NCBI RefSeq assembly: GCF_025725665.1
Contig: NZ_CP107009.1
Coordinates: forward strand, 4,402,001-4,466,000
DNA from: Halomonas sp. LR3S48
Lineage (GTDB): Bacteria > Pseudomonadota > Gammaproteobacteria > Pseudomonadales > Halomonadaceae
DNA length: 64,000 bases
Direction of reading: 5' to 3'
Of the stretch, positions 12,134-30,306 are shown one piece after another. The position numbers were made by a program, and so were the translations under genes. The stretch's first letter is position 1, and the number at the start of each line of letters is the position of its first letter. A model generated the notes under the pieces. It was not told the origin of the DNA. It made no database searches and saw only the letters and a list, made by a program, of their open reading frames with translations.

Positions 12134-13044
12134 CACTTCTCGGCGCCCTTGCCGTTCTGGCGCAGCAGCATGCCGATGGCGGCCAGCACCAGGGCACTGC
12201 CCGGCAGCCACTGCCAGCCGATCTGCTCGGGCGCGGTGGCGAACAGCAACAGCATCGAGACGAAGGGCACCATGTAGCCGTAGGCAGTGACGGCCCCAGG
12301 TGTGAGCACGGAGGTGGCACGCTGCATCAACCAGAAGGTGAGGGCACTGGAGAAAAGGCCCAGGTAGACCACCAGGGCGAAGTCCTGCCAGCGCATGCCG
12401 ACCAGTTCGGCAGCGGGCTCGATGGTGAGCCCCAGCACGCCGATCAGCAGGCCGCCCAGCCCCAGACTCCAGAAGGTGCGCACCGCCGCCGACTCGGGCA
12501 GCCATTCGCGGGCCAGCCCCCACTTGCTCAGCACCGGGTAGAGTGCCGACGACACGCAGCCGAGGAAGAACACTGCCTCACCGATACCCAGCTGCAGGCC
12601 TTCGCCGTGGCTGAGGGCTTCGGCAAAGGCGAGCCCCAGCGCCCCGCAGGCACCCAGCGCCAGGATCGCCGGCAATTGCCAGCCCAAGCGCTCGACGCGA
12701 AACCCGAGCCCCAGCAGGTAGGCCAGCAGCGGCACGGTGACGTAGAGCGTGGCCATGGAGAGCGCGGTGGCATGGTGGGCGGCCCAGAACATGGCTGCGA
12801 AGAAACCGGCCAGGCACAGCCCCATCAGCGCGTAGAGCGGCAACAGCCGCCAAGGCGGCAGGAAGTCGGGCGAGCGCCGTGCCAACCACCATAGCCCGGC
12901 ACAGGCGATGGCGAAGCGCAGGGCGGTGAGCGAAAGCGGTGGCAGCTCGCCCATCAACCCCACGGCGGGAAACGACAGCCCGACCAGCAGCGACCACAGC
13001 AGCATGCCCAGGTGGGCAAGCCGGGGCGTTATCGGCGCGCTCAA
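12112..13044 (-). CDS. EamA/DMT-family transporter
   Basis: A 310-residue integral membrane protein with about ten hydrophobic helices in two homologous halves, the drug/metabolite transporter (EamA) layout. Segments such as SLTALRFAIACAGLWWLARR and ATALSMATLYVTVPLLAYLL fit the two repeats. Substrate cannot be told from sequence. The start is a TTG whose first two bases follow directly on the DUF2218 stop (TTGA overlap); an ATG 13 codons later (13005) is an alternative. The two genes probably form one transcript. Confidence 0.85.
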
Positions 13045-13322
13045 TTTTCCCAGACGATCGCCAGGTCCTCGTCGCCCGCCATGCGCTGCAGGTGGGAGTC
13101 GACGACGCCTTCCAGGCGGTCGAGACTCTCCTCCTCCAGCGCCTCGATGGCCACTACCAGCTTGCCCGGCTCGACGCGCATCACGCAGGAGCCCTCATCG
13201 AACACCACCCGGCTCTCCTCCTCACCCTGCTCCACCTCCAGCTTGTGCGCCCAGTGCTTGCACAGCCGGTTCATCAGCCTCGCCCCGGACTCGGTGGCGA
13301 TCTCGGCACGCGACATCGGCAT
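13041..13322 (-). CDS. DUF2218 domain-containing protein
   Basis: A 93-residue acidic cytoplasmic protein. The segment ARLMNRLCKHWAHKLEVE followed by a GSCVMRVEPG strand and a C-terminal LAIVWEN resembles DUF2218 proteins, small proteins of unknown role sometimes found near metal or siderophore genes. I chose the ATG at 13322 (MPMSRAEI) because GGAG lies nine bases upstream; an ATG five codons earlier has none. Translation is likely coupled to the following EamA gene. Confidence 0.75.
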   Translation of the reverse strand: MPMSRAEIATESGARLMNRLCKHWAHKLEVEQGEEESRVVFDEGSCVMRVEPGKLVVAIEALEEESLDRLEGVVDSHLQRMAGDEDLAIVWEN

Positions 13323-13356
13323 AGCAACGATCTCCATTCGTATTGGAGCTAACAGA

Positions 13357-13534: not shown

Positions 13535-13593
13535 TTTTCAGTAGGCCGCAGAAACGTTAAAATAAACGTACCCTTACGTCTTAAGTAACGTAC
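13535..13593 (+). promoter_or_regulatory. dndBCDE promoter and repeat-type operator candidate
   Basis: TTTTCA (13535-13540), a 17-bp spacer and TAAAAT (13558-13563) form a sigma-70-like promoter. Two AACGTAC direct repeats (13565-13571 and 13587-13593) lie 22 bp apart, two helical turns, with TTACGT between, covering the start site and the dndB ribosome-binding region. DndB-type proteins repress their own operon in some characterised systems, so these repeats are a candidate operator. Confidence 0.5.
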
Positions 13594-13595
13594 TC

Positions 13596-14705
13596 ATGAC
13601 ACAGATGGCGGGAGCAACAGCGCAGCAAACCCATGATTTCCCAGCTTTGCGGGGGATTCAGGGAGGGCGTGCATGCTACACCATCATGTGCCCGCTACGC
13701 CTCATCCCGAAGCTGTTTACCTATGATGACTCCAGCCTTCCGCCTGAGCAGCGCGCGCAGCGCGCTATCAACCCAGGACGCATTCCCGAAATTACGGATT
13801 ACCTGACACAGAACGCTGAGAATTACATTCTTCCCGCTATCACTGCATCGCTAGATCAGGAGGCTGAATTCGTACCTTCCGGGAAGGACCTCGTACCACT
13901 CGTTGGTGAGCTGCGCATACCTCGCGATGCCCGGCTGCTCATCAATGATGGCCAGCATCGGCGTGCTGCGATTGAGCGCGCGGTGACGAAGAAGAAAGAG
14001 CTCGGACATGACAGCATTCCTGTGTTGCTATTCATCGATGAAGGACTCAAGCGCAGCCAGCAAATGTTTGCTGACCTAAACCGCCATGCGATCCGTCCGA
14101 GCACCTCGCTCAACACGTTTTTTGACAAGCGTGACGCCGCCTCGACACTAGCGCGCTGCGTGATGCAGGAAGTGCCTTGTTTTCGCGAGCTGACTGAGGT
14201 CGAGAAAAGTTCTCTGCCTCTCAAATCACGCAAGCTGTTCACTCTGAGCGCCATTAAGAATGCTAGCTGGCGATTCTTGGAAAAGCGCAAACGCGACGTA
14301 GCTAACGGAGACGAACATACGCAATGCATCGCTTTTTGGTCAGGCGTTTGCCAGGTCATGCCTGACTGGCAGGAAGCCATGGAAAATATCAGCCTTCCCA
14401 TGCAGCTCCGGCAGGGTAGCATCCATGCGCATGGCGTTTTTCTCCAGGCGTTAGCTGTTGCCTGCGCCTCCCTTAGACATGAGGTGCCTGGCTATGAACC
14501 CGACTGGTATGCCGCTCGCCTAATGAGCCTGATGGATGAAAACTGGCAACGCTCGAACCCTGAATGGGAGGGGCGCTGCCTGCGAGACGGTCGCATTTCT
14601 AAATCCCATACCTCTGTAGAGTTGCTTGCAAGCTACCTCAAACTACGCTTAGGCATCCCGCTCAGCGATGAACAGCGCGGACTCGAGGAAAACTATTCAC
14701 GATGA
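13596..14705 (+). CDS. dndB: DNA phosphorothioation protein DndB
   Basis: DndB belongs to the DGQHR-domain family and in studied systems tunes phosphorothioation and represses the dnd operon. The 369-residue product carries LLINDGQHRRAAIERAV with DGQHR at residues 118-122, followed by the FADLNRHAIRPSTSLNTFFD segment typical of this family. Length fits DndB (about 360). It is the first gene of a tightly packed operon and overlaps dndC by four bases. The start at 13596 has only a weak ribosome site; an ATG three codons on is possible. Base composition is close to the chromosome, unlike the 3' part of the operon. Confidence 0.93.
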   Translation: MTQMAGATAQQTHDFPALRGIQGGRACYTIMCPLRLIPKLFTYDDSSLPPEQRAQRAINPGRIPEITDYLTQNAENYILPAITASLDQEAEFVPSGKDLVPLVGELRIPRDARLLINDGQHRRAAIERAVTKKKELGHDSIPVLLFIDEGLKRSQQMFADLNRHAIRPSTSLNTFFDKRDAASTLARCVMQEVPCFRELTEVEKSSLPLKSRKLFTLSAIKNASWRFLEKRKRDVANGDEHTQCIAFWSGVCQVMPDWQEAMENISLPMQLRQGSIHAHGVFLQALAVACASLRHEVPGYEPDWYAARLMSLMDENWQRSNPEWEGRCLRDGRISKSHTSVELLASYLKLRLGIPLSDEQRGLEENYSR

Positions 14706-16309
14706 GCACAGATACACTTTTTGCCACTCGGGACGAAATGGTTGCCGCGCAGAGCTTCGCCGGGCGACCGCTCCCTGGCCTGCTCGCCGAGCTGCAAACC
14801 CTATATCTTGAAGACGAGCGCCCTTGGGTGATCGGCTTCAGCGGCGGAAAAGATTCCACAGCTGTTCTATCTCTAATCTATACCGCTATCGAGAAACTGC
14901 CTCCCCAAGAGCGTCACAAGCACGTCTATGTGGTCTGTTCAGATACCCTGGTAGAGACCCCGGTGGTTGTCGACCTCATATCAACTACCTTGGAACAGAT
15001 CAATACAAGGGCTACAGAGGAGGGACTACCTTTCTCTGCCCACCAAGTCGTGCCAAAGGCCAATGACACCTTCTGGGTGAACTTATTAGGCAAGGGGTAT
15101 CCTGCGCCAACCCAGAGCTTTCGTTGGTGCACCGAGCGAATGAAGATCGACCCGGTCAGCAGCTTCATTCTTGACAAGGTAACGCGCCACGGCGAGGTGA
15201 TTGTCGTGCTCGGCGCACGTAGCCAAGAAAGCGCATCACGCGCTCAAGTCATCGCCAAGCACAAAGTAGATGGCTCACTGCTATCCAAACACTCATCCCT
15301 TCCAGGCGCCTATACCTATATGCCCATAGAGGACTGGACGTTCGATGAGGTGTGGATGTATCTCCTGGGTGCTCCAGCGCCCTGGGGCGGAACCCATCAC
15401 AAACTATTTGAGCTATATAAAGACTCAAGTGCAGGTGAGTGCCCTGTAGTTATCGATACTAAAACCCCATCGTGCGGCAATTCCCGTTTCGGCTGTTGGA
15501 CTTGCACCGTGGTTACTAAAGATCGCGCAATGGAGGGGCTGATTGAGTCCGGCGAGATATGGATGAAGCGGCTCAAGTCATTCCGCGATCTTCTTTATCG
15601 CACGACACGGCCTCATAACAAGGCCAAGTATCGCAATCACAAGCGCCGCACCGGCAAAGTGCAGTACGCACGCGGCCAGATCGATGATGACACCACCATC
15701 GAGAAGAAGGTGATTCCAGGTCCGTACTGGATGGCATATCGGCAGGCCTGGCTTAAGAAGCTTCTGGAAATTCAGAAGCACCTCAACGAAGGCGGAAATC
15801 CGATCCGGCTGATCCATGAAGACGAGCTGAAGCACATACGCCTCGAATGGCTCAACGATCCCAATGAGCCGGATGCTCTTGATGCGCTTCCGGCAATCTA
15901 TGCCAGCGTATATGGCCACAAGCTAGACTGGATGCAGGACTCAGCTGGCGTGCTAACTCAACAGGACGCAGCCGCCCTGAGTAGTGCTTGCCTGGAGCAT
16001 GGCACACCCATCGATCTTGCCGTAAAGTTACTACAGCTGGAGCAGTCTCTTGACGGGCTCAGCAAGCGGCATGGCGTTTTCAAGCGCATTGATTCTTTAT
16101 TGAATCAGGACTGGGGTGATCTCGACACACTGCATACCAAGAAACAGGATGCCAGTATGGCACTAGAAAGTATGCAAGCTGCTAAAGGAAGAATGCAAGA
16201 CATCTTCCAGGAAAACACCGGCTACCAAGGCAAAACCCGCAACGCGAAGAGCGTCTACGACGAGCTGTTGGCTGGGCTAGAGATCCAATATGAGGAACTG
16301 AGAAAATGA
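14702..16309 (+). CDS. dndC: DNA phosphorothioation protein DndC (PAPS-reductase-like)
   Basis: DndC is the ATP-pyrophosphatase-type enzyme thought to activate the DNA backbone for sulfur insertion. SGGKDST at residues 47-53 is the PP-loop of the PAPS reductase/ThiI superfamily. Cysteines in TPSCGNSRFGCWTCTVV and the upstream FRWCTERMK are positioned as in DndC, where they bind an iron-sulfur cluster. At 535 residues it matches the family. Start and stop overlap dndB and dndD by four bases each, so the operon is translationally coupled. No dndA desulfurase accompanies it; a housekeeping IscS probably supplies sulfur. Confidence 0.95.
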   Translation: MSTDTLFATRDEMVAAQSFAGRPLPGLLAELQTLYLEDERPWVIGFSGGKDSTAVLSLIYTAIEKLPPQERHKHVYVVCSDTLVETPVVVDLISTTLEQINTRATEEGLPFSAHQVVPKANDTFWVNLLGKGYPAPTQSFRWCTERMKIDPVSSFILDKVTRHGEVIVVLGARSQESASRAQVIAKHKVDGSLLSKHSSLPGAYTYMPIEDWTFDEVWMYLLGAPAPWGGTHHKLFELYKDSSAGECPVVIDTKTPSCGNSRFGCWTCTVVTKDRAMEGLIESGEIWMKRLKSFRDLLYRTTRPHNKAKYRNHKRRTGKVQYARGQIDDDTTIEKKVIPGPYWMAYRQAWLKKLLEIQKHLNEGGNPIRLIHEDELKHIRLEWLNDPNEPDALDALPAIYASVYGHKLDWMQDSAGVLTQQDAAALSSACLEHGTPIDLAVKLLQLEQSLDGLSKRHGVFKRIDSLLNQDWGDLDTLHTKKQDASMALESMQAAKGRMQDIFQENTGYQGKTRNAKSVYDELLAGLEIQYEELRK

Positions 16310-18294
16310 TCCTGAACACGCTGAAACTGGGCAATTTCAGGGTCTTTCGCGGTGACCACGAAATCGATCTCACGCCAGAAGGGCCAAGCGGGCAAAAGCC
16401 TATCATTCTGTTTGGTGGCCTAAACGGTGCCGGCAAAACATCCATTCTAACAGCTGTGCGCCTTACCCTTTTTGGCCGCCGTATACTCGGCACCAAGGTC
16501 TCCAGCGAGGAGTACTACCGCTATCTGGCTGATTGCATACATAAGCCAAACGGGGCTGAGCATGCACCGAATAGCGCCTACGTTCGTCTGAAATTCAATG
16601 ATAGCCGCGGCGGACAACATCACGATTACGATGTGGTACGCAGCTGGTTCCGTGATACCAGTGGTGCGATTACAGAAAATCTTCAGATTACTCGCGACGA
16701 AGAGGTGCTCTCCAATCTCTCCCATGAGCAGAGCCAGAGTTTCCTGAATGACTTAATCCCTCTGGGGATAGCTGACCTTTTCTTCTTCGATGGTGAGAAA
16801 ATTGCGGAACTGGCAGAATCCAAGGGCAATGCGGCACTCGCCGACGCCATTCAGCGTCTTCTAGGCCTTGACCTCGTTAATAAGCTCCGTGCTGACCTTG
16901 GTGTCTATATTCGCAACCATTCGAATGGCAGGCTGCCCGAAGCGATTCGCAAGGAGGCCGAATTGTTAGAGGCAGAATATGATCGCCACTACACAAGCTA
17001 CCAGCTCGAGTTGGAAGGTAAGGAAGGACTAGAGGATCAGCTGCATAACCTGAGAGCCGACATTGCTCGGCTGGAGCAGAAGATAGAGGCCCATGGCGGC
17101 GCCTGGTACGAAAATCAGGCTGCCGAAAAGGAGAGAATGGAGCGCCTGCTGGCTGAACAGGAAGGCATCAAAGGTCGGATCCGCTCACTCAAAGGCTCTC
17201 TCTACCCCCTGGCACTTGCTCCAACAGCACTGAATGCCTTGTTGGTTCAGCTCGATGCAGAGAGCGACTACCGCAAGCAAGAAGTCACTCACCAAGCGGC
17301 TAAGCGCCAAGCTAAAGCACTGCGCAAGGAACTTGAAAGTGCCCTGAAAGGTAAAGAGGCGCTTCTAACTGGAGCCATCGAAAAAGCCTTTGGAAAAAGC
17401 TTGAAGCCACCCAAGAAGGTGGAGATGGTGCACGATCTATCGGATAGTGAGATTGAAAGGCTACGTCACCAGATCACCGAAGAAGCACCTAAACAAAAGC
17501 AAGAAGTCGATGAGCTCGAAATTAGGCTTGAAGGGCTGCGCCATGAGATAAGTGAGTGTGCAACAAATATTGAGCGAGCTCCTGACGAAGAGCGAGTAAA
17601 GCCACTATATGAACAGCTCCATGAGACGCAACTACAGCATGGGCGCCTGAATAGCCGAATTGAAGAGCTGCGCGAAAATGCCAAGCGAAAGCTACGTAAC
17701 GCCATGGACTGCATTCGCAAACTGCGAAAGCTTGAGACTGAACACCAGCATCAATCCGACAATATTCATGCTATCGAAATGGCAAAATCAGTTCGAGAAA
17801 TGCTAAGCAGCTATTCGGAGCGTGCAAAAACCAGCAAAGTTCAAGAGCTCGAAAAACACTTTATCGAGTCTTTTAAGCGACTATCAAGAAAGAGTCATGA
17901 CAATCTAACCCCGCGTATTGACTCAGTCACTTTTGGCGTTAAACTAGCCTATGGTGATGGAAGAAATTATGACCGAGAGCAACTGTCAGCTGGTGAAAAG
18001 CAAGTATATGCAACGGCCATGCTTGAAGCCTTAGGAAAAACAACAGGTCGCCGCTTACCTATAATAATTGACACGCCACTAGGCCGGCTTGATTCTGAAC
18101 ATAGAGTTAGGATTGTAGGAAATTACTTCCCATCCGCAAGCCATCAAGTAATACTCTTATCTACTGACACAGAGATACAACTAGATCATACCCCATCTAG
18201 TTTCAAAAAATCTATTTCAAGAAAATTTACAATAAATTATAGTAAAATAAACGATTCGTCGCATATAGAAAAAGGGTTTTTCAATGCTTCCTAA
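16306..18294 (+). CDS. dndD: DNA phosphorothioation ATPase DndD
   Basis: DndD is an SMC/Rad50-like ATPase thought to open or nick DNA for the DndCDE complex. Seen: Walker A GGLNGAGKTS at residues 37-46, an FFFDGEKIAEL segment, a long charged coiled-coil region through the middle, and a C-terminal ABC signature LSAGEKQVYATAMLEAL followed by the Walker B IIIDTPLGRLDSEHR. Length 662 fits DndD. The first two thirds have near-host composition; the last 300 bp turn strongly AT-rich, which suggests the operon is a mosaic. It overlaps dndE by 11 bp. Confidence 0.95.
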   Translation: MILNTLKLGNFRVFRGDHEIDLTPEGPSGQKPIILFGGLNGAGKTSILTAVRLTLFGRRILGTKVSSEEYYRYLADCIHKPNGAEHAPNSAYVRLKFNDSRGGQHHDYDVVRSWFRDTSGAITENLQITRDEEVLSNLSHEQSQSFLNDLIPLGIADLFFFDGEKIAELAESKGNAALADAIQRLLGLDLVNKLRADLGVYIRNHSNGRLPEAIRKEAELLEAEYDRHYTSYQLELEGKEGLEDQLHNLRADIARLEQKIEAHGGAWYENQAAEKERMERLLAEQEGIKGRIRSLKGSLYPLALAPTALNALLVQLDAESDYRKQEVTHQAAKRQAKALRKELESALKGKEALLTGAIEKAFGKSLKPPKKVEMVHDLSDSEIERLRHQITEEAPKQKQEVDELEIRLEGLRHEISECATNIERAPDEERVKPLYEQLHETQLQHGRLNSRIEELRENAKRKLRNAMDCIRKLRKLETEHQHQSDNIHAIEMAKSVREMLSSYSERAKTSKVQELEKHFIESFKRLSRKSHDNLTPRIDSVTFGVKLAYGDGRNYDREQLSAGEKQVYATAMLEALGKTTGRRLPIIIDTPLGRLDSEHRVRIVGNYFPSASHQVILLSTDTEIQLDHTPSSFKKSISRKFTINYSKINDSSHIEKGFFNAS

Positions 18295-18595
18295 CAGATT
18301 CTCCCTTACCAGCTACGCCGAGGATAGGCTTAAAAAAGATAAAAGCATAACTGGGATAGCAATAAACATTGCAGCTCGCGAGCTTTTCTTTCGGTCAATA
18401 GAGCGCGGCATAAAATTTTCCTCCTTGACAACAATTGCATGGGGAAAAATGGAACTAGACAAAGCAACTTGGCTTGGTGATTGTCGCATCATCACTGAGT
18501 TGTTATTAACTAGCATGTATCCCAAGCATGATAGCGCCGAACTAGCAACTTTATTTGCTATGCATATTGATGCCCAACTATCAGAAAATATTTAA
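18284..18595 (+). CDS. dndE: DNA phosphorothioation protein DndE
   Basis: DndE is a small basic protein that binds nicked DNA and completes the DndCDE modification complex. The 103-residue product starts MLPNRFSLTSYAEDRLKKDK, has the helical ITGIAINIAARELFFRSIERG region that corresponds to the family's conserved N-terminal half, and ends in an acidic helix. Identity rests on size, helical pattern and position after dndD more than on strict motifs. Its stop overlaps the stop of the convergent PIN-like gene by four bases, so there is no room for a terminator. Confidence 0.85.
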   Translation: MLPNRFSLTSYAEDRLKKDKSITGIAINIAARELFFRSIERGIKFSSLTTIAWGKMELDKATWLGDCRIITELLLTSMYPKHDSAELATLFAMHIDAQLSENI

Positions 18596-19713
18596 TCACG
18601 GATCCTCCATACACCATCTCTAACTTTTTCAAATAAATCCTCTTTCCCTAGGTATGCATCAACATCTGAAGAATGGTTATAAATTGTTCTTCTCACGATG
18701 GAGCGCCACGAAGGGGACAATCTGTCTCTTCTGGCCTCCACCTCCCTATATACATCAGACAAATGCGCCTCTCCACCCAGATCGGATATTATCTGATATA
18801 TGCTTTCTTTCCATCCGCCATATGCTGCATCTGAAATATTTTCTATTGATACTTTTCCAATTTTAACACCATAGAACCTGGACGCTTTTCTTAGAAACAC
18901 ATCAGCCCCCACTAATGAAAATTCAACGCCAGTCCTATAAAAAGCCTCGTTAACCAACTCTGGCCGAGCACGCCTCCCTCCACCGAATGAATCAATCCAA
19001 TCTTCTTTTTCTTCCCCGGTTACAAAAACAACTGGACCTTTATTGTTTTCGCACCAATTTAAAACTTGTTCCCAAATAATATAATCGCCGCACTTATTAG
19101 GAAGTGCTATTCCTGAAAAACTATATATTCCTTCTTTTTTCTCATCCTCACCGCAGCCAGGAGGTATATTGTTTTGAAATCTATACTCTGCTTCTTTAAT
19201 AAGCGCTTCAATTTCACATCTGGAAAACGCCCTCCCAACAGCATCCTTATATATATTTTCCAACTCCGGAACTATAACATCATTTTTATTGTAATCAGGG
19301 TTTTTCTTTTTTTCTTTCTCCAAATGACTGATAATTTTATCAAAAAGGGGTTGCACCTCATTATTAAACCCTTTCATGAGGGTTTTATTTCCTCCAATTC
19401 TAGCTCCGCTTTTAATTCGTTTTCTAACTGCATTCAACTGCCTTTCAATATGTTTAAACTCTTCCATTTGCTCTAGAACAACCCTACCCCGCATACCAAA
19501 GAACTCTACCATCGTTTGATGCGGAGCCCATAGTTTTTTCGCCTTGGCAACTGCACGCAAAATATTTAGCAACGAATCCCTGTCTTTCACATCTAGACGA
19601 TATAGCCCCAAAAGGACATTAGCATCTAAAATATATGTGCAGGATTTAAATAGATCATCACTCGGGTTGCTAGAAAAAAAACCCACGAAGGATTTTGATA
19701 AATCTGTGTTCAT
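18592..19713 (-). CDS. PIN-like nuclease with C-terminal winged-helix-like region
   Basis: The 373-residue product has an N-terminal PIN-like fold of the DUF4935/PIN_8 type: YILDANVLLGLY with acidic D30, a basic helical insert (residues 85-145), KCGDYIIW at 207-214 and VVFVTGEEKEDW at 228-239. The last acidic motif reads TGEEKEDW where TDDxKEDW is usual. Residues about 305-373 look like a winged-helix DNA-reading domain (GGEAHLSDVYREV ... VRDGVWRIRD). Inference: a nuclease effector with its own DNA or modification sensor. It converges on dndE with overlapping stops. The AT-rich composition differs sharply from the chromosome. It could be an unrelated PIN defence gene. Confidence 0.7.
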   Translation of the reverse strand: MNTDLSKSFVGFFSSNPSDDLFKSCTYILDANVLLGLYRLDVKDRDSLLNILRAVAKAKKLWAPHQTMVEFFGMRGRVVLEQMEEFKHIERQLNAVRKRIKSGARIGGNKTLMKGFNNEVQPLFDKIISHLEKEKKKNPDYNKNDVIVPELENIYKDAVGRAFSRCEIEALIKEAEYRFQNNIPPGCGEDEKKEGIYSFSGIALPNKCGDYIIWEQVLNWCENNKGPVVFVTGEEKEDWIDSFGGGRRARPELVNEAFYRTGVEFSLVGADVFLRKASRFYGVKIGKVSIENISDAAYGGWKESIYQIISDLGGEAHLSDVYREVEARRDRLSPSWRSIVRRTIYNHSSDVDAYLGKEDLFEKVRDGVWRIRD

Positions 19714-19746
19714 ATATCACCAACCTGAAAAAACCCTGCTTGATAG

Positions 19747-19776
19747 CATATACAACTATAAGAAAATAAGTGTCAC
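19747..19776 (-). promoter_or_regulatory. Promoter of the PIN-like gene
   Basis: On the minus strand GTGACA (19771-19776), an 18-bp spacer and TATATG (19747-19752) resemble a sigma-70 promoter, 34 bp ahead of the ATG. This suggests the PIN-like gene can be expressed independently of the AIPR gene. Confidence 0.45.
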
Positions 19777-19819
19777 ACGGTCCTAGATAGCAGCAGAAGA
19801 CTTCATTTGCCATGAAATG

Positions 19820-19837
19820 AGGGGGCTTAAGCCCCCT
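19820..19837. terminator. Perfect 18-bp palindrome after the AIPR gene
   Basis: AGGGGGCTTAAGCCCCCT lies 18 bp past the AIPR stop. Its GC-rich stem stands out in AT-rich DNA. On the minus strand it is followed by CATTTCATGG rather than a T run, so it may be a weak terminator, an RNA-stabilising stem or an operator. Confidence 0.45.
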
Positions 19838-19855
19838 AATGAAAAGGTAACACTG

Positions 19856-21247
19856 CTATGCTTTTTGCTGAAGAATTAACTGAACACGAAAGAGGTCCTG
19901 CGCAGCTTGGTAGCAACTCCGTTCCTTACCAACTTTAGCGGGATCATACCCCTGCCCAACTATCATGCCATAAAAAGACCCCATAATCTTATCAAGATTA
20001 TTTCTAATGAAAGTATCAGGGTCTACCTTCCACTTTACTTCCCCATCTGTGTACTCCATAAGCTCTCGCAGCGCCCAGACAAGTGGGATAATAAAGCCTT
20101 CCGGGTAATCATACTTGACCTTCTTCTTAAAGAACTTAGTCTCGGGATGTTTGGTTAAATATTTCTTTTGCCCAGATTTAACTTTTTGAGGATCAAAAAT
20201 TCTTACCGAGTCTACACGGCCAAACTTTGCTCCGACTGCATTGCTGGCAGCTTCTGGCATCAACTCATAAATTAAATCATAAAGCCGAGGCAGATCAGCC
20301 ATTAAAGCAAGTGCACTGGCTACACCTCTATGTACTACTTCTACAATCTCACCTTTTTCAGGAACTTTAGCGCTAACACCATCGTATCTGACAATATCGT
20401 TAAATAAACTCACACAAAGCCCTTTGGAAGAAAAAATCATCTGGGGCCCCTTTAGCACTCGTGAATGAGGTGCATCCTTCTCTTGCTTACCAAGCTCAGC
20501 GACCGGTATCTGAGAAATAGGCACCAACGCAAGCGCAACTAGATCACGGGACTTTACACGGCCCCCATCATTTGCCTTCCACTCAACATCAGAACGGAGC
20601 TTGGGATCGAGGTTCTTTTTTATCTGGTCATAATAGCCAGCTTTATGTGCTTTCGTCGCTTCAGGCAACTGAGCATTATTATTCCTCGACCTATTGATAT
20701 CTAAAATTGCATTGTTAAAATTTTCTTCGCCACTAGCACCTTCTGCTGGATGAATAATTTCAACAGGTATTAGGAAATTTAATTCATTCTTAATTGCTTC
20801 AACAGCAGCTATATTACTCTGCCATATCGGTTGCAAGTCTTGCCAAGTCTTTAGTTTTTTGAGAATGCCCTCACTATCGTCACCTAAAGCCACCCGAAGC
20901 ATATGACGAGCAATTGCCAGCGTATTGTGGCCGCCATCAAGTATCCCTTCGAGCTCCTCATCTTCAAATGTTAGTTTGAATCTATTTCGCTCGAGAGATT
21001 CAACAGATCGTGCAGCTATGAGTACACCTTTTGTTTTATAATGGAAAATTTGAGGCGTTTCAACGAGACTCACCTCAATATCATTCGTCACAGGTCCGAC
21101 CTTCGCGTTACGCGGGTTTGCCTCTAGGTCAGCACGAGAAATCAAATCTACAAATGTTGATGGATAGACTTCGCCGCTGAGTTTCTGCAGCTGGTCACTA
21201 GATTGGCTTACATTTTTGTAGCGAAGTACAACAGAAGTATTACTCAT
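19856..21247 (-). CDS. AIPR-type (abortive infection phage resistance) protein
   Basis: A 463-residue soluble protein. The core EGILDGGHNTLAIARHML, with DGGHN at residues 104-108, matches the [DN]GGxT/DGGHT pattern of AIPR-family proteins, found in abortive-infection and restriction loci, and it also recalls the DGQHR motif of DndB in the same island. LNFLIPVEIIHP and DINRSRNNNAQLPEATKAHKA follow in the family order. No nuclease motif is evident. AGGAG precedes the ATG at 21247, and a strong promoter lies further upstream. The gene is AT-rich relative to the chromosome. Inference: a defence effector or regulator of the Dnd system. Confidence 0.7.
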   Translation of the reverse strand: MSNTSVVLRYKNVSQSSDQLQKLSGEVYPSTFVDLISRADLEANPRNAKVGPVTNDIEVSLVETPQIFHYKTKGVLIAARSVESLERNRFKLTFEDEELEGILDGGHNTLAIARHMLRVALGDDSEGILKKLKTWQDLQPIWQSNIAAVEAIKNELNFLIPVEIIHPAEGASGEENFNNAILDINRSRNNNAQLPEATKAHKAGYYDQIKKNLDPKLRSDVEWKANDGGRVKSRDLVALALVPISQIPVAELGKQEKDAPHSRVLKGPQMIFSSKGLCVSLFNDIVRYDGVSAKVPEKGEIVEVVHRGVASALALMADLPRLYDLIYELMPEAASNAVGAKFGRVDSVRIFDPQKVKSGQKKYLTKHPETKFFKKKVKYDYPEGFIIPLVWALRELMEYTDGEVKWKVDPDTFIRNNLDKIMGSFYGMIVGQGYDPAKVGKERSCYQAAQDLFRVQLILQQKA

Positions 21248-21333
21248 ATTGATCTCCTAAGAGCAAGGAGACCGGCAGGACAGAAAAAACTCTCATTCCC
21301 ACGTCCAACCAGTCATCCGACAGGTTAAGTTCC

Positions 21334-21353
21334 GTGCTTCCTACCGGAAGCAC
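21334..21353 (-). other. Hairpin in the AIPR leader
   Basis: GTGCTTCC / GGAAGCAC forms a perfect 8-bp stem with a 4-base loop in the transcribed leader about 90 bp before the AIPR start. It has no T run and may affect mRNA stability or translation. Confidence 0.4.
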
Positions 21354-21402
21354 TTGGGGTGTATCTGGCTTCCGCCAACCCCATCCATTACTGGACGTTA
21401 AT

Positions 21403-21432
21403 AAGATATATAGGAATGTCTCTATACGTCAA
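21403..21432 (-). promoter_or_regulatory. Strong promoter of the AIPR gene, with inverted repeats
   Basis: TTGACG (21427-21432) pairs with TATATC or TATCTT (21403-21410) at 16-18 bp spacing. Inverted arms GACGT ... ACGTC flank the -10, and TATAG ... CTATA lies between the elements, so a repressor may bind here. The leader from this promoter would be about 150 nt. Confidence 0.55.
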
Positions 21433-21509: not shown

Positions 21510-22661
21510 TTACGGCTTCATATCCTCGAAGAACTTCTTCACGCCGTCGAAGAAGCCGCTCTTCTTGGGCGAGTGGTGGGCGCTGTTGCTGCCCCCCAGG
21601 CTCTCCTGGAACTGACGCAGCAGCGCCTTCTGCTCCTCACTGAGATTGACCGGGGTCTCCACCACCACCTTGCACAGCAGGTCGCCGGGCGGGCCGCCAC
21701 GCACCGGCTTGACGCCCTTGGCGCGCAGGCGGAAGAGCTTGCCGGTCTGGGTCTCGGGCGGGATCTTGAGCTTGACCCGGCCGTCCAGCGTGGGCACTTC
21801 GAGCTCGCCGCCCAGCGCGGCATCGACGAAGTTGATCGGCACCTCGCACTGCAGGTGCTTGCCGTCGCGCTGGAAGATGTGGTGCGGCTTGATCGCCACC
21901 TGCACATAGAGATCGCCGGGCGGGCCGCCGTTGACGCCGGATTCGCCCTCGCCGTTCAAGCGAATGCGATCGCCGGTGTCCACCCCGGCAGGAATCTTCA
22001 CCGACAGGGTGCGGGTCTCGCGCATACGGCCCTCGCCGTGGCACTTGTGGCACGGCACCTTGATGTGCACGCCACTGCCGTGGCAGGTCGGGCAGGTCTG
22101 CTGCACGGCGAAGAAGCCCTGCTGCATGCGCACCTGGCCGTGGCCGTTACAGGTGGGGCAGGTCTCCTTGGTGGAGCCAGGCTCGGCACCCTGGCCGTCG
22201 CAGCGGTCGCATTCCACGTGACGCGGCACGCGGATATCCACCGTGGTACCGGCGACGGCACTCTCGAGATCGAGCTCGAGGTTGTAGCGCAGGTCACTGC
22301 CGCGCTGCGGCGCATGGGGGCTGCGCCGCCCGCCGCCGCCACCGAAGATGTCGCCGAACACGTCGCCGAAGATGTCGCTGAAGCCGCCGGCACCCGCACC
22401 GCCGAAGCCGCCACCGCCGAAGCCTCCGGCCTGGCCGTCTACGCCGGCATGGCCGAACTGGTCGTAGGCGGCGCGCTTCTCGCTGTCGGAGAGGATTTCG
22501 TATGCCTCTGAGACCTCGCGAAACTTCTCTGCCGAAGTGTCGTCACCCGGGTTACGGTCCGGGTGGTACTTCTGCGCCAGCCGTCGGTAGGCCTTCTTGA
22601 TGTCTTGGGTCTCGGCCCCACGCTCTACGCCGAGCACCTCGTAATAATCGCGTTTGGACAT
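21510..22661 (-). CDS. dnaJ: Chaperone DnaJ
   Basis: DnaJ delivers unfolded clients to DnaK and stimulates its ATPase. Seen: the J domain with HPD in [11 protein letters not shown], a glycine/phenylalanine-rich linker, four CxxCxGxG zinc repeats ([32 protein letters not shown]), and the C-terminal client-binding region. I chose the ATG at 22661 ([11 protein letters not shown]); upstream in-frame codons are not family-like. Length 383 (376 in E. coli). It follows dnaK by 105 bp in the same operon. Confidence 0.98.
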
Positions 22662-22766
22662 GGGTCCATGCGCCTCCTGGTCTAGGCAGCTCTGCCCGAT
22701 CCGCGGAAACGGCAACGCGGGAGTCGTCCCCCCGCGCTACCGTCGCCCGTGGCATCGCCTTGGCGA

Positions 22767-29926: not shown

Positions 29927-30306
29927 GGGGGCGACATGGCTTCGACGCCGGTGACAACCTCCTAGGTGCATGCCGAGAGCGTGATGTATCTCGTAAATCC
30001 AACATCACGACTAAATAGTCGCAAACGACGACAACTACGCTCAGGGCGCGCTGGCAGCTTAATAGCTGTTAGCTTCTAGTCCGGCCCCAAAGCGATGTGC
30101 CCATTCATCGCGGAGGGGATATGAGCCAAGAATGATGGGATCGCGGTTGGTGGTGTCCTCTCGCCAATCGCTAAATCTTAGAGGAATCGCGTAGCTGGAT
30201 CCTGCCCGTTGGAGCCAGATGCGTTAAACCAAAAAACGGACCTAAGCATGTAGAGCCGAAGAGCGAGTGCCGGCGGACGCGGGTTCGATCCCCGCCGCCT
30301 CCACCA
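29927..30306 (+). ncRNA. ssrA: Transfer-messenger RNA (tmRNA)
   Basis: The 380-nt RNA starts GGGGGCGACATGGCTTCGAC and ends in a tRNA-like arm (GGGTTCGATCCCCGCCGCCT then CCACCA), whose acceptor pairs with the 5' end (GGGGGCG / CGCCTCC). The resume codon is GCA at 30021 and the tag reads ANDDNYAQGALAA, stopped by TAATAG at 30060. Position after smpB supports the call. Confidence 0.98.

Follow-up and report, generated by a model that had tools for sequence, protein, structure and literature searches.

A PIN_8 protein with a winged-helix-like tail as a candidate accessory nuclease of a Dnd locus in Halomonas sp. LR3S48

The dnd island of Halomonas sp. LR3S48

A stretch of 64,000 nucleotides from the genome of Halomonas sp. 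LR3S48 (positions 4,402,001 to 4,466,000 of contig NZ_CP107009.1) was analyzed; it is referred to here as the window, and coordinates without a locus name are counted from its first letter. The window contains genes for DNA phosphorothioation (Dnd) in a small island that is flanked by a DUF2218 gene (13041-13337) and dnaJ (21510-22715). Six genes were discerned between these flanks: the modification genes dndBCDE and, on the opposite strand, an AIPR-like gene and a gene encoding a PIN_8 protein with a winged-helix-like (wH) C-terminal domain. The latter protein, termed PIN-wH in the following, recurs in dnd loci and is considered here as a candidate accessory nuclease of Dnd defence. The island comprises the following features:

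13596 to 14705, plus strand: dndB (TIGR03233 416 bits, cut-off 328; PF14072 391 bits)
14702 to 16309, plus strand: dndC, PAPS-reductase-type sulfurtransferase (TIGR03183 565 bits, cut-off 290)
16306 to 18294, plus strand: dndD, SMC-like ATPase (TIGR03185 535 bits, cut-off 246)
18284 to 18595, plus strand: dndE, 103 amino acids (PF08870 52.5 bits, cut-off 25; PADLOC DndE 98.6 bits)
18592 to 18595: 4 nucleotides in which the stop codons of dndE and the PIN-wH gene overlap (sequence)
18592 to 19713, minus strand: PIN-wH gene, 373 amino acids (PF18476 160 bits, cut-off 26.1; family alignment)
19820 to 19837: perfect palindrome of 18 nucleotides in the gap between the AIPR-like and PIN-wH genes, terminator-like for the AIPR-like gene (sequence)
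19856 to 21247, minus strand: AIPR-like gene, 463 amino acids (PF10592 24.3 bits, cut-off 25)

Profile matches and coordinates bear out the initial annotation of the island as a dndBCDE operon with PIN_8-wH and AIPR-like genes on the minus strand, and the sequence at 18592-18595 confirms that the stop codons of dndE and the PIN-wH gene overlap by four bases and that the transcripts converge. Neither dndA nor dndFGH (dptFGH) had been seen at the locus, which holds for the six genes scanned. Genes for pbeABCD and sspFGH were likewise absent from these six, the search being confined to the island.

Restriction partners in the genome

The genome consists of a single contig of 4,689,245 bases. It has no match to DptH (TIGR03237); the positive control, genome G756, matched at 1502 bits. 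DptH was also without a match in the genomes G346, G288 and G179. The phosphorothioate (PT)-dependent HNH enzyme (NF045808), which is matched in G756, and DUF262 (PF03235; DndI/SspE/GmrSD type), which is matched in G756 and in 8 of 14 control genomes, both gave no match in the Halomonas genome. The genes dptF and dptG are not among the island genes, to which the search for these two was confined. The initial annotation had considered a dndFGH set elsewhere in this genome; the lack of a DptH match speaks against one genome-wide, and for dptF and dptG the result covers the island. Judged from its genes, this dnd locus has one clear nuclease candidate, PIN-wH.

PIN-wH in other dnd loci

A protein search with the PIN of the window yielded 6 proteins and a search with a four-row alignment 35, 15 of which (the window's included) share the length and domain order of the window PIN-wH. 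When the PIN was compared to 72,556 plasmid records with tblastn, 52 of them matched. The best-covered match (99 percent coverage, 27 percent identity) is located on a megaplasmid of Pseudoalteromonas shioyasakiensis (locus L126), where the PIN-wH gene adjoins dndE and directly follows it. This dnd locus also contains a convergent DGQHR gene, dptF, dptG and dptH. The dptH frame of this locus stays open for 1600 codons; dptG is split into two overlapping open frames (L196:13058-14357). With dptG in two pieces, the restriction set may be either functional or defective. Phage records contained no match for the P. shioyasakiensis PIN-wH.

When 375 genomes of one family were searched with a profile, 13 matches at E 1e-60 emerged, of which the one in G756 (loci L209/L210) is full length. 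The gene order in G756 is dptF, dptG, dptH, PIN-wH, PT-dependent HNH, GmrSD-like and AAA, and this run converges head-on with dndE-D-C-B and a methyltransferase gene. The start codon of PIN-wH is located inside the last 11 nucleotides of dptH. Among 398 genomes of the phylum, a profile likewise picked up 13 matches; PIN and wH together were covered by the window's own match only, the remaining ones being PIN-only (eight) or wH-only (four). Altogether, PIN-wH was found in a dnd locus in 3/3 readable cases, the window included. Since both relatives carry dptFGH, PIN-wH would act as an added effector at dnd loci rather than as a substitute for DndFGH. The initial wording "in place of DndFGH" thus fails as a rule.

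To compare PIN_8 loci with and without wH, 21 loci that were short or duplicated, including that of the window, were dropped, leaving 161, and 154 unique loci remained once 7 more, identical in a 100-residue slice, had been removed. Both loci with wH (L126 and L209, the window left out) hold dnd and dpt genes, compared to a dnd/dpt-like neighbour in 3/152 unique loci without wH (Fisher p 8.5e-4; 1.9e-3 when restricted to the 100 loci of at least 15 kilobases; few positive cases). Neighbours may escape in the 52 of 152 loci that are shorter than 15 kilobases, and distant systems may escape the dnd/dpt queries (tblastn, E 1e-6), as these were drawn solely from the window, P. shioyasakiensis, Aliivibrio wodanis and E. 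coli. The three exceptions without wH are L035 (dptFGH), L131 (an Enterobacter plasmid with DndB/DndC-like genes) and L172 (no more than a DndB-like gene). At 3/152 unique loci, PIN_8 at large was rejected as a marker of dnd.

In the Sphingobacterium locus (L035:9929-19710), dptF-G-H is directly preceded by the gene for a PIN_8 protein whose tail is weakly zinc-ribbon-like, and L040 shows the same hits in the same places. The L035 arrangement supports a wider theme. On the Enterobacter hormaechei plasmid (L131:2043-10821), DndC-like PAPS, DGQHR, PIN-like and Abi genes form a single stretch beside an integrase.

Domains and residues of PIN-wH

Two domains are discerned in the protein:

18976 to 19632, minus strand: PIN_8 domain, residues 28-246, with D30, E70, D210 and E234
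18595 to 18816, minus strand: winged-helix-like C-terminal domain, residues 300-373 (wh5 profile; low-confidence model)

All 373 codons of the PIN-wH gene are free of an internal stop, its frame being intact, and the protein contains both a full-length PIN_8 domain and a wH of the family-alignment type; in the 374-codon open frame, the wh5 profile matches residues 301-374. The acidic residues D30, E70, D210 and E234, which we take to be the catalytic four of the PIN domain, are retained. In a tree of PIN_8 proteins, 17 of the 46 rows have wH. No NTPase domain was detected in PIN-wH by Pfam, and PADLOC gave just a weak LmuB match for the PIN (E 0.012). The best value in PDB sequence searches, 0.0072, belonged to a MarR-type protein over residues 4-121 and was dismissed as chance, and Foldseek of both models against the PDB returned nothing with E < 0.001. 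VIA-align was applied to the PIN only; its list, which barely covered the tail, contained no winged-helix family for it.

Pfam has no family for the wH module, which also occurs in fusion with an HNH protein, with two methyltransferase-like proteins and with an open reading frame that has an L-PSP domain. These fusions outside PIN are located at L142:1459-2214, L143:772-1737, L144:862-1719 and L141:1399-2259.

The best fold matches include VapC4 and HARP, which are RNA-cutting PIN proteins. They are consistent with PIN-wH being a backup suicide endoRNase, held by the Dnd machinery and freed when a phage disables Dnd, which would cut cellular RNA without reading phosphorothioates. The restriction set that is also present in L126 and L209 points in the same direction, as does the role proposed for PIN/HEPN genes at dnd edges in the main text of PMC10853773. 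However, the other fusion partners of the wH look like proteins that act on DNA, and in G756 the gene starts within the end of dptH and precedes the PT-dependent HNH gene, which fits a restriction-side role better. We therefore regard a suicide endoRNase as an unlikely explanation, albeit one to be taken seriously.

The AIPR-like gene

The PF10592 score of the AIPR-like protein is just under the cut-off, and several close relatives carry PF10592. Among the best 120 of 965 matches, the protein shares 44-55% identity with proteins named AIPR and up to 63% with unnamed PF10592 proteins; it is like the AIPR family by identity and differs from it by its sub-cut-off score. Homologues are numerous (965 matches among 7999 candidates scored). 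PADLOC gave nothing for this protein, and phage records contained no AIPR match. AIPR was found in twelve places, six plasmid records, one genome and five viral contigs, of which one, one and five were fetched, respectively. Hits to dnd or dpt genes were present in 0/7 of these loci, some of which have little flank (L226 ends 9 nucleotides past the match). The gap between the PIN-wH and AIPR-like genes is 142 nucleotides long and holds a hairpin; a 69-nucleotide stretch around the palindrome folds at z -2.68.

Because none of the seven other loci has dnd genes, the family is large and a hairpin lies between the two genes, the AIPR-like gene is probably a separate mobile passenger in the same island. 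A functional pair of PIN-wH and AIPR was rejected owing to the seven loci and the hairpin, and AIPR is also present in 0/21 other loci around DndC-family matches. The initial annotation had seen both proteins as one effector arm that might recur beside dnd genes. What remains of it is PIN-wH as a recurrent dnd gene (the window and 2/2 other readable loci, L126 and L209/L210); the union with AIPR and the recurrence of AIPR are not supported.

AIPR as a divergent DndB was another candidate. A DG[GQ]H-like motif is common to the AIPR-like protein and DndB, and the DndB N-terminus is placed in the AbiU1/AIPR family in PMC3506569. The candidate was rejected, with hhalign probabilities of 0.8 percent against DndB and 0.4 percent against a DGQHR profile (2 rows). 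A passage in PMC9122126 expands the name AIPR. On a contig of a viral collection (L229:9833-14529), an AIPR gene overlaps the gene for a helicase of 1048 amino acids with a PLD nuclease domain.

Modification genes and base composition

DndB, DndC and DndD are encoded in one operon and all score above their equivalog cut-offs; DndC has a single match genome-wide. DndE exceeds the PF08870 cut-off and reaches 51.6 bits with TIGR03184, below the cut-off of 71.85. It is about 12-14 C-terminal residues shorter than 5/5 aligned DndEs. The early end of dndE (18560-18595) coincides with the run into the convergent PIN-wH gene. The genome encodes an IscS-like desulfurase, whose 521 bits fall short of the cut-off for IscS (643); the locus itself has no dndA.

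The GC content of the island is far under that of its flanks. At third codon positions (GC3), whole-gene values are 33-60 for the island genes versus 80-89 for the flanking genes used (87-89 for carA, EamA, DUF2218, dnaJ and dnaK, 80 for the MBL gene). The flanking dapB was left out of this comparison, as its coordinates may be out of frame. GC3 amounts to about 54-69% in dndB and dndC and to 53-62% over the first 300 codons of dndD, and it drops steeply within the 3' half of dndD (17200-18294) to 25-34% over codons 500-663, reaching the level of dndE, PIN-wH and AIPR (windows of 28-41%). A comparable drop was absent from five dndD genes of other loci that were measured in the same way. Because of this drop without parallel, the locus looks mosaic, and base composition suggests that the dndD 3' end, dndE, PIN-wH and AIPR may have a history differing from that of dndB and dndC.

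By its GC3 values the locus is a foreign island, which could also have brought together dnd, PIN-wH and AIPR as separate passengers that are neighbours by chance. In favour of this explanation, plasmids and viral contigs carry PIN_8 genes as well, for the most part lacking dnd hits, and AIPR has no link to dnd. PIN-wH, however, is found in dnd loci in 2/2 independent cases, in one of which it starts inside dptH; the explanation applies to AIPR and not to PIN-wH, and for the three together we consider it improbable. Decay has to be weighed as well: the island may be the remnant of a G756-like restriction-side operon that lost dptFGH, with dndBCDE now a mere epigenetic mark and PIN-wH decaying. 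The convergent layout resembles that of G756 minus the other genes, and the change of D233 to G, the very long tree branch and the shortened dndE would agree with decay. Against it stand the intact frame and the retained D30, E70, D210 and E234, and we regard a remnant as improbable.

A proposed role for PIN-wH

We favour PIN-wH as an accessory nuclease of Dnd defence, a mechanism to which, taken as a whole, we assign about even confidence. DndBCDE would mark self DNA, using sulfur from a housekeeping cysteine desulfurase, and the winged-helix-like tail would position the PIN nuclease on DNA. The PIN domain would then cut upon engaging unmarked invader DNA or in response to a disturbed marking machinery; in this genome, a single small protein would thus supply the attack step. 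The proposal builds on the gene content, the lack of DptH, DUF262 and PT-dependent HNH matches, the recurrence in dnd loci, the conservation of the PIN acidic residues and the reuse of the wH. Nuclease activity, DNA as a docking surface and dependence on phosphorothioates are predicted. That DndBCDE and PIN-wH form a self-sufficient defence of a new type, in which the wH reads the phosphorothioate state and licenses the PIN to cut unmodified invader DNA, PIN-wH being an added effector beside DndFGH in larger loci (P. shioyasakiensis and G756), appears rather doubtful.

Several observations weigh against the accessory nuclease. Of the 15 PIN-wH proteins in the database, only that of the window has a readable neighbourhood, the other 14 having none, and the readable PIN-wH loci number three (the window, L126 and L209/L210). 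Both relatives carry dptF, dptG and dptH, which does not speak for PIN-wH being sufficient by itself. PIN-wH is rare and one among several alternative dnd partners, because 0/21 other loci around DndC-family matches carry PIN_8, wH or AIPR (E up to 1); these 21 include short contigs (L116, 7 kilobases), weak DndC-family matches (L122, L123 and L125) and L242, where dndC is present without other annotated dnd genes. The putative active site is variable across the family: the window has G at position 233, where D is found in 14/15 PIN-wH proteins, and N at position 32, where S is found in 11/15. The wH model is poor (block means of pLDDT, the predicted local distance difference test, of 41-72 across residues 301-373), the wH label requires three changes in the tree, though its origin may have been single, and the PIN-wH proteins of the window and G756 are on long branches. 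The wH profile has no similarity to the PT-binding HNH protein of G756 (one HNH sequence); lacking an alignment to this one sequence, the idea that the wH is the sulfur-binding domain of PT-dependent HNH enzymes was weakly rejected. Finally, the short C-terminus of DndE may weaken modification.

Comparison with known systems

In PMC11662687, DndI acts with IscS-DndBCDE and does not need DndFGH, and DUF262 (PF03235) is the domain named for DndI and SspE. There, dndFGH is nearby in 340/568 dndBCD genomes, and a further 61 have dndI but no dndFGH. The Salmonella system IscS-DndBCDE-DndI is like the window in having one accessory nuclease beside dndBCDE and a desulfurase in trans, and dndI is located within the dndFGH operon, as is PIN-wH in G756. 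DndI differs from PIN-wH by its DUF262 and DUF1524 HNH domains and its PT-stimulated ATPase.

PIN and HEPN endoRNases at dnd locus edges, sometimes on the opposite strand, are described in the main text of PMC10853773, where the standalone nucleases are proposed as suicide back-ups. Calling the arm "undescribed", as was done initially, was thus too strong. Like these endoRNases, PIN-wH of the window is located at the boundary of the modification locus on the opposite strand, whereas in L126 and L209 it is codirectional with dndBCDE or dptFGH. The relevant passages of the main text name no PIN_8 with a winged helix and give no PIN count; PIN_8-wH may be among the supplementary cases. PIN is counted among the less common BREX back-ups in PMC12839542. 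Titles retrieved from the open-access literature on PIN with phosphorothioation or dnd, and on PIN_8 with phage defence, contained no PIN-wH dnd effector. New here are the PIN_8-wH architecture, its recurrence in dnd loci and the setting as a lone nuclease.

The DndFGH/DptFGH module shares the convergent restriction-side position with PIN-wH of the window, and in G756 PIN-wH is part of that run; in the window, by contrast, DptH has no match and PIN-wH is one protein of 373 amino acids. The PT-dependent HNH enzyme, whose gene is next after PIN-wH in G756, likewise combines a nuclease with a DNA-reading domain in a dnd locus, but it is an HNH rather than a PIN enzyme and does not align with the wH.

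PIN-wH bears on the question of what means of attack, if any, dndBCD genomes without dndFGH or dndI use. A single dnd-recurrent nuclease of this size, in a genome without DptH, DUF262 or PT-dependent HNH matches, makes the question testable with a five-gene construct. If PIN-wH cuts DNA under phosphorothioate control, the use of the PIN domain would widen from RNA to backbone-modified DNA, and PIN-wH would, to our knowledge, be without precedent among PIN enzymes in being controlled by a mark on the DNA backbone.

Additional observations

A convergent DGQHR gene is present beside the dnd operon in three gammaproteobacterial loci, on the side that is occupied by PIN-wH in the window:

L126:17142-18302: convergent DGQHR gene
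L127:16147-17427: convergent DGQHR gene
L128, about 16157-17104: convergent DGQHR gene, in at least two pieces

The DGQHR proteins of L126 and L127 resemble TIGR04172, below its cut-off. Further downstream in the window, a tmRNA gene is located at 29927-30306.

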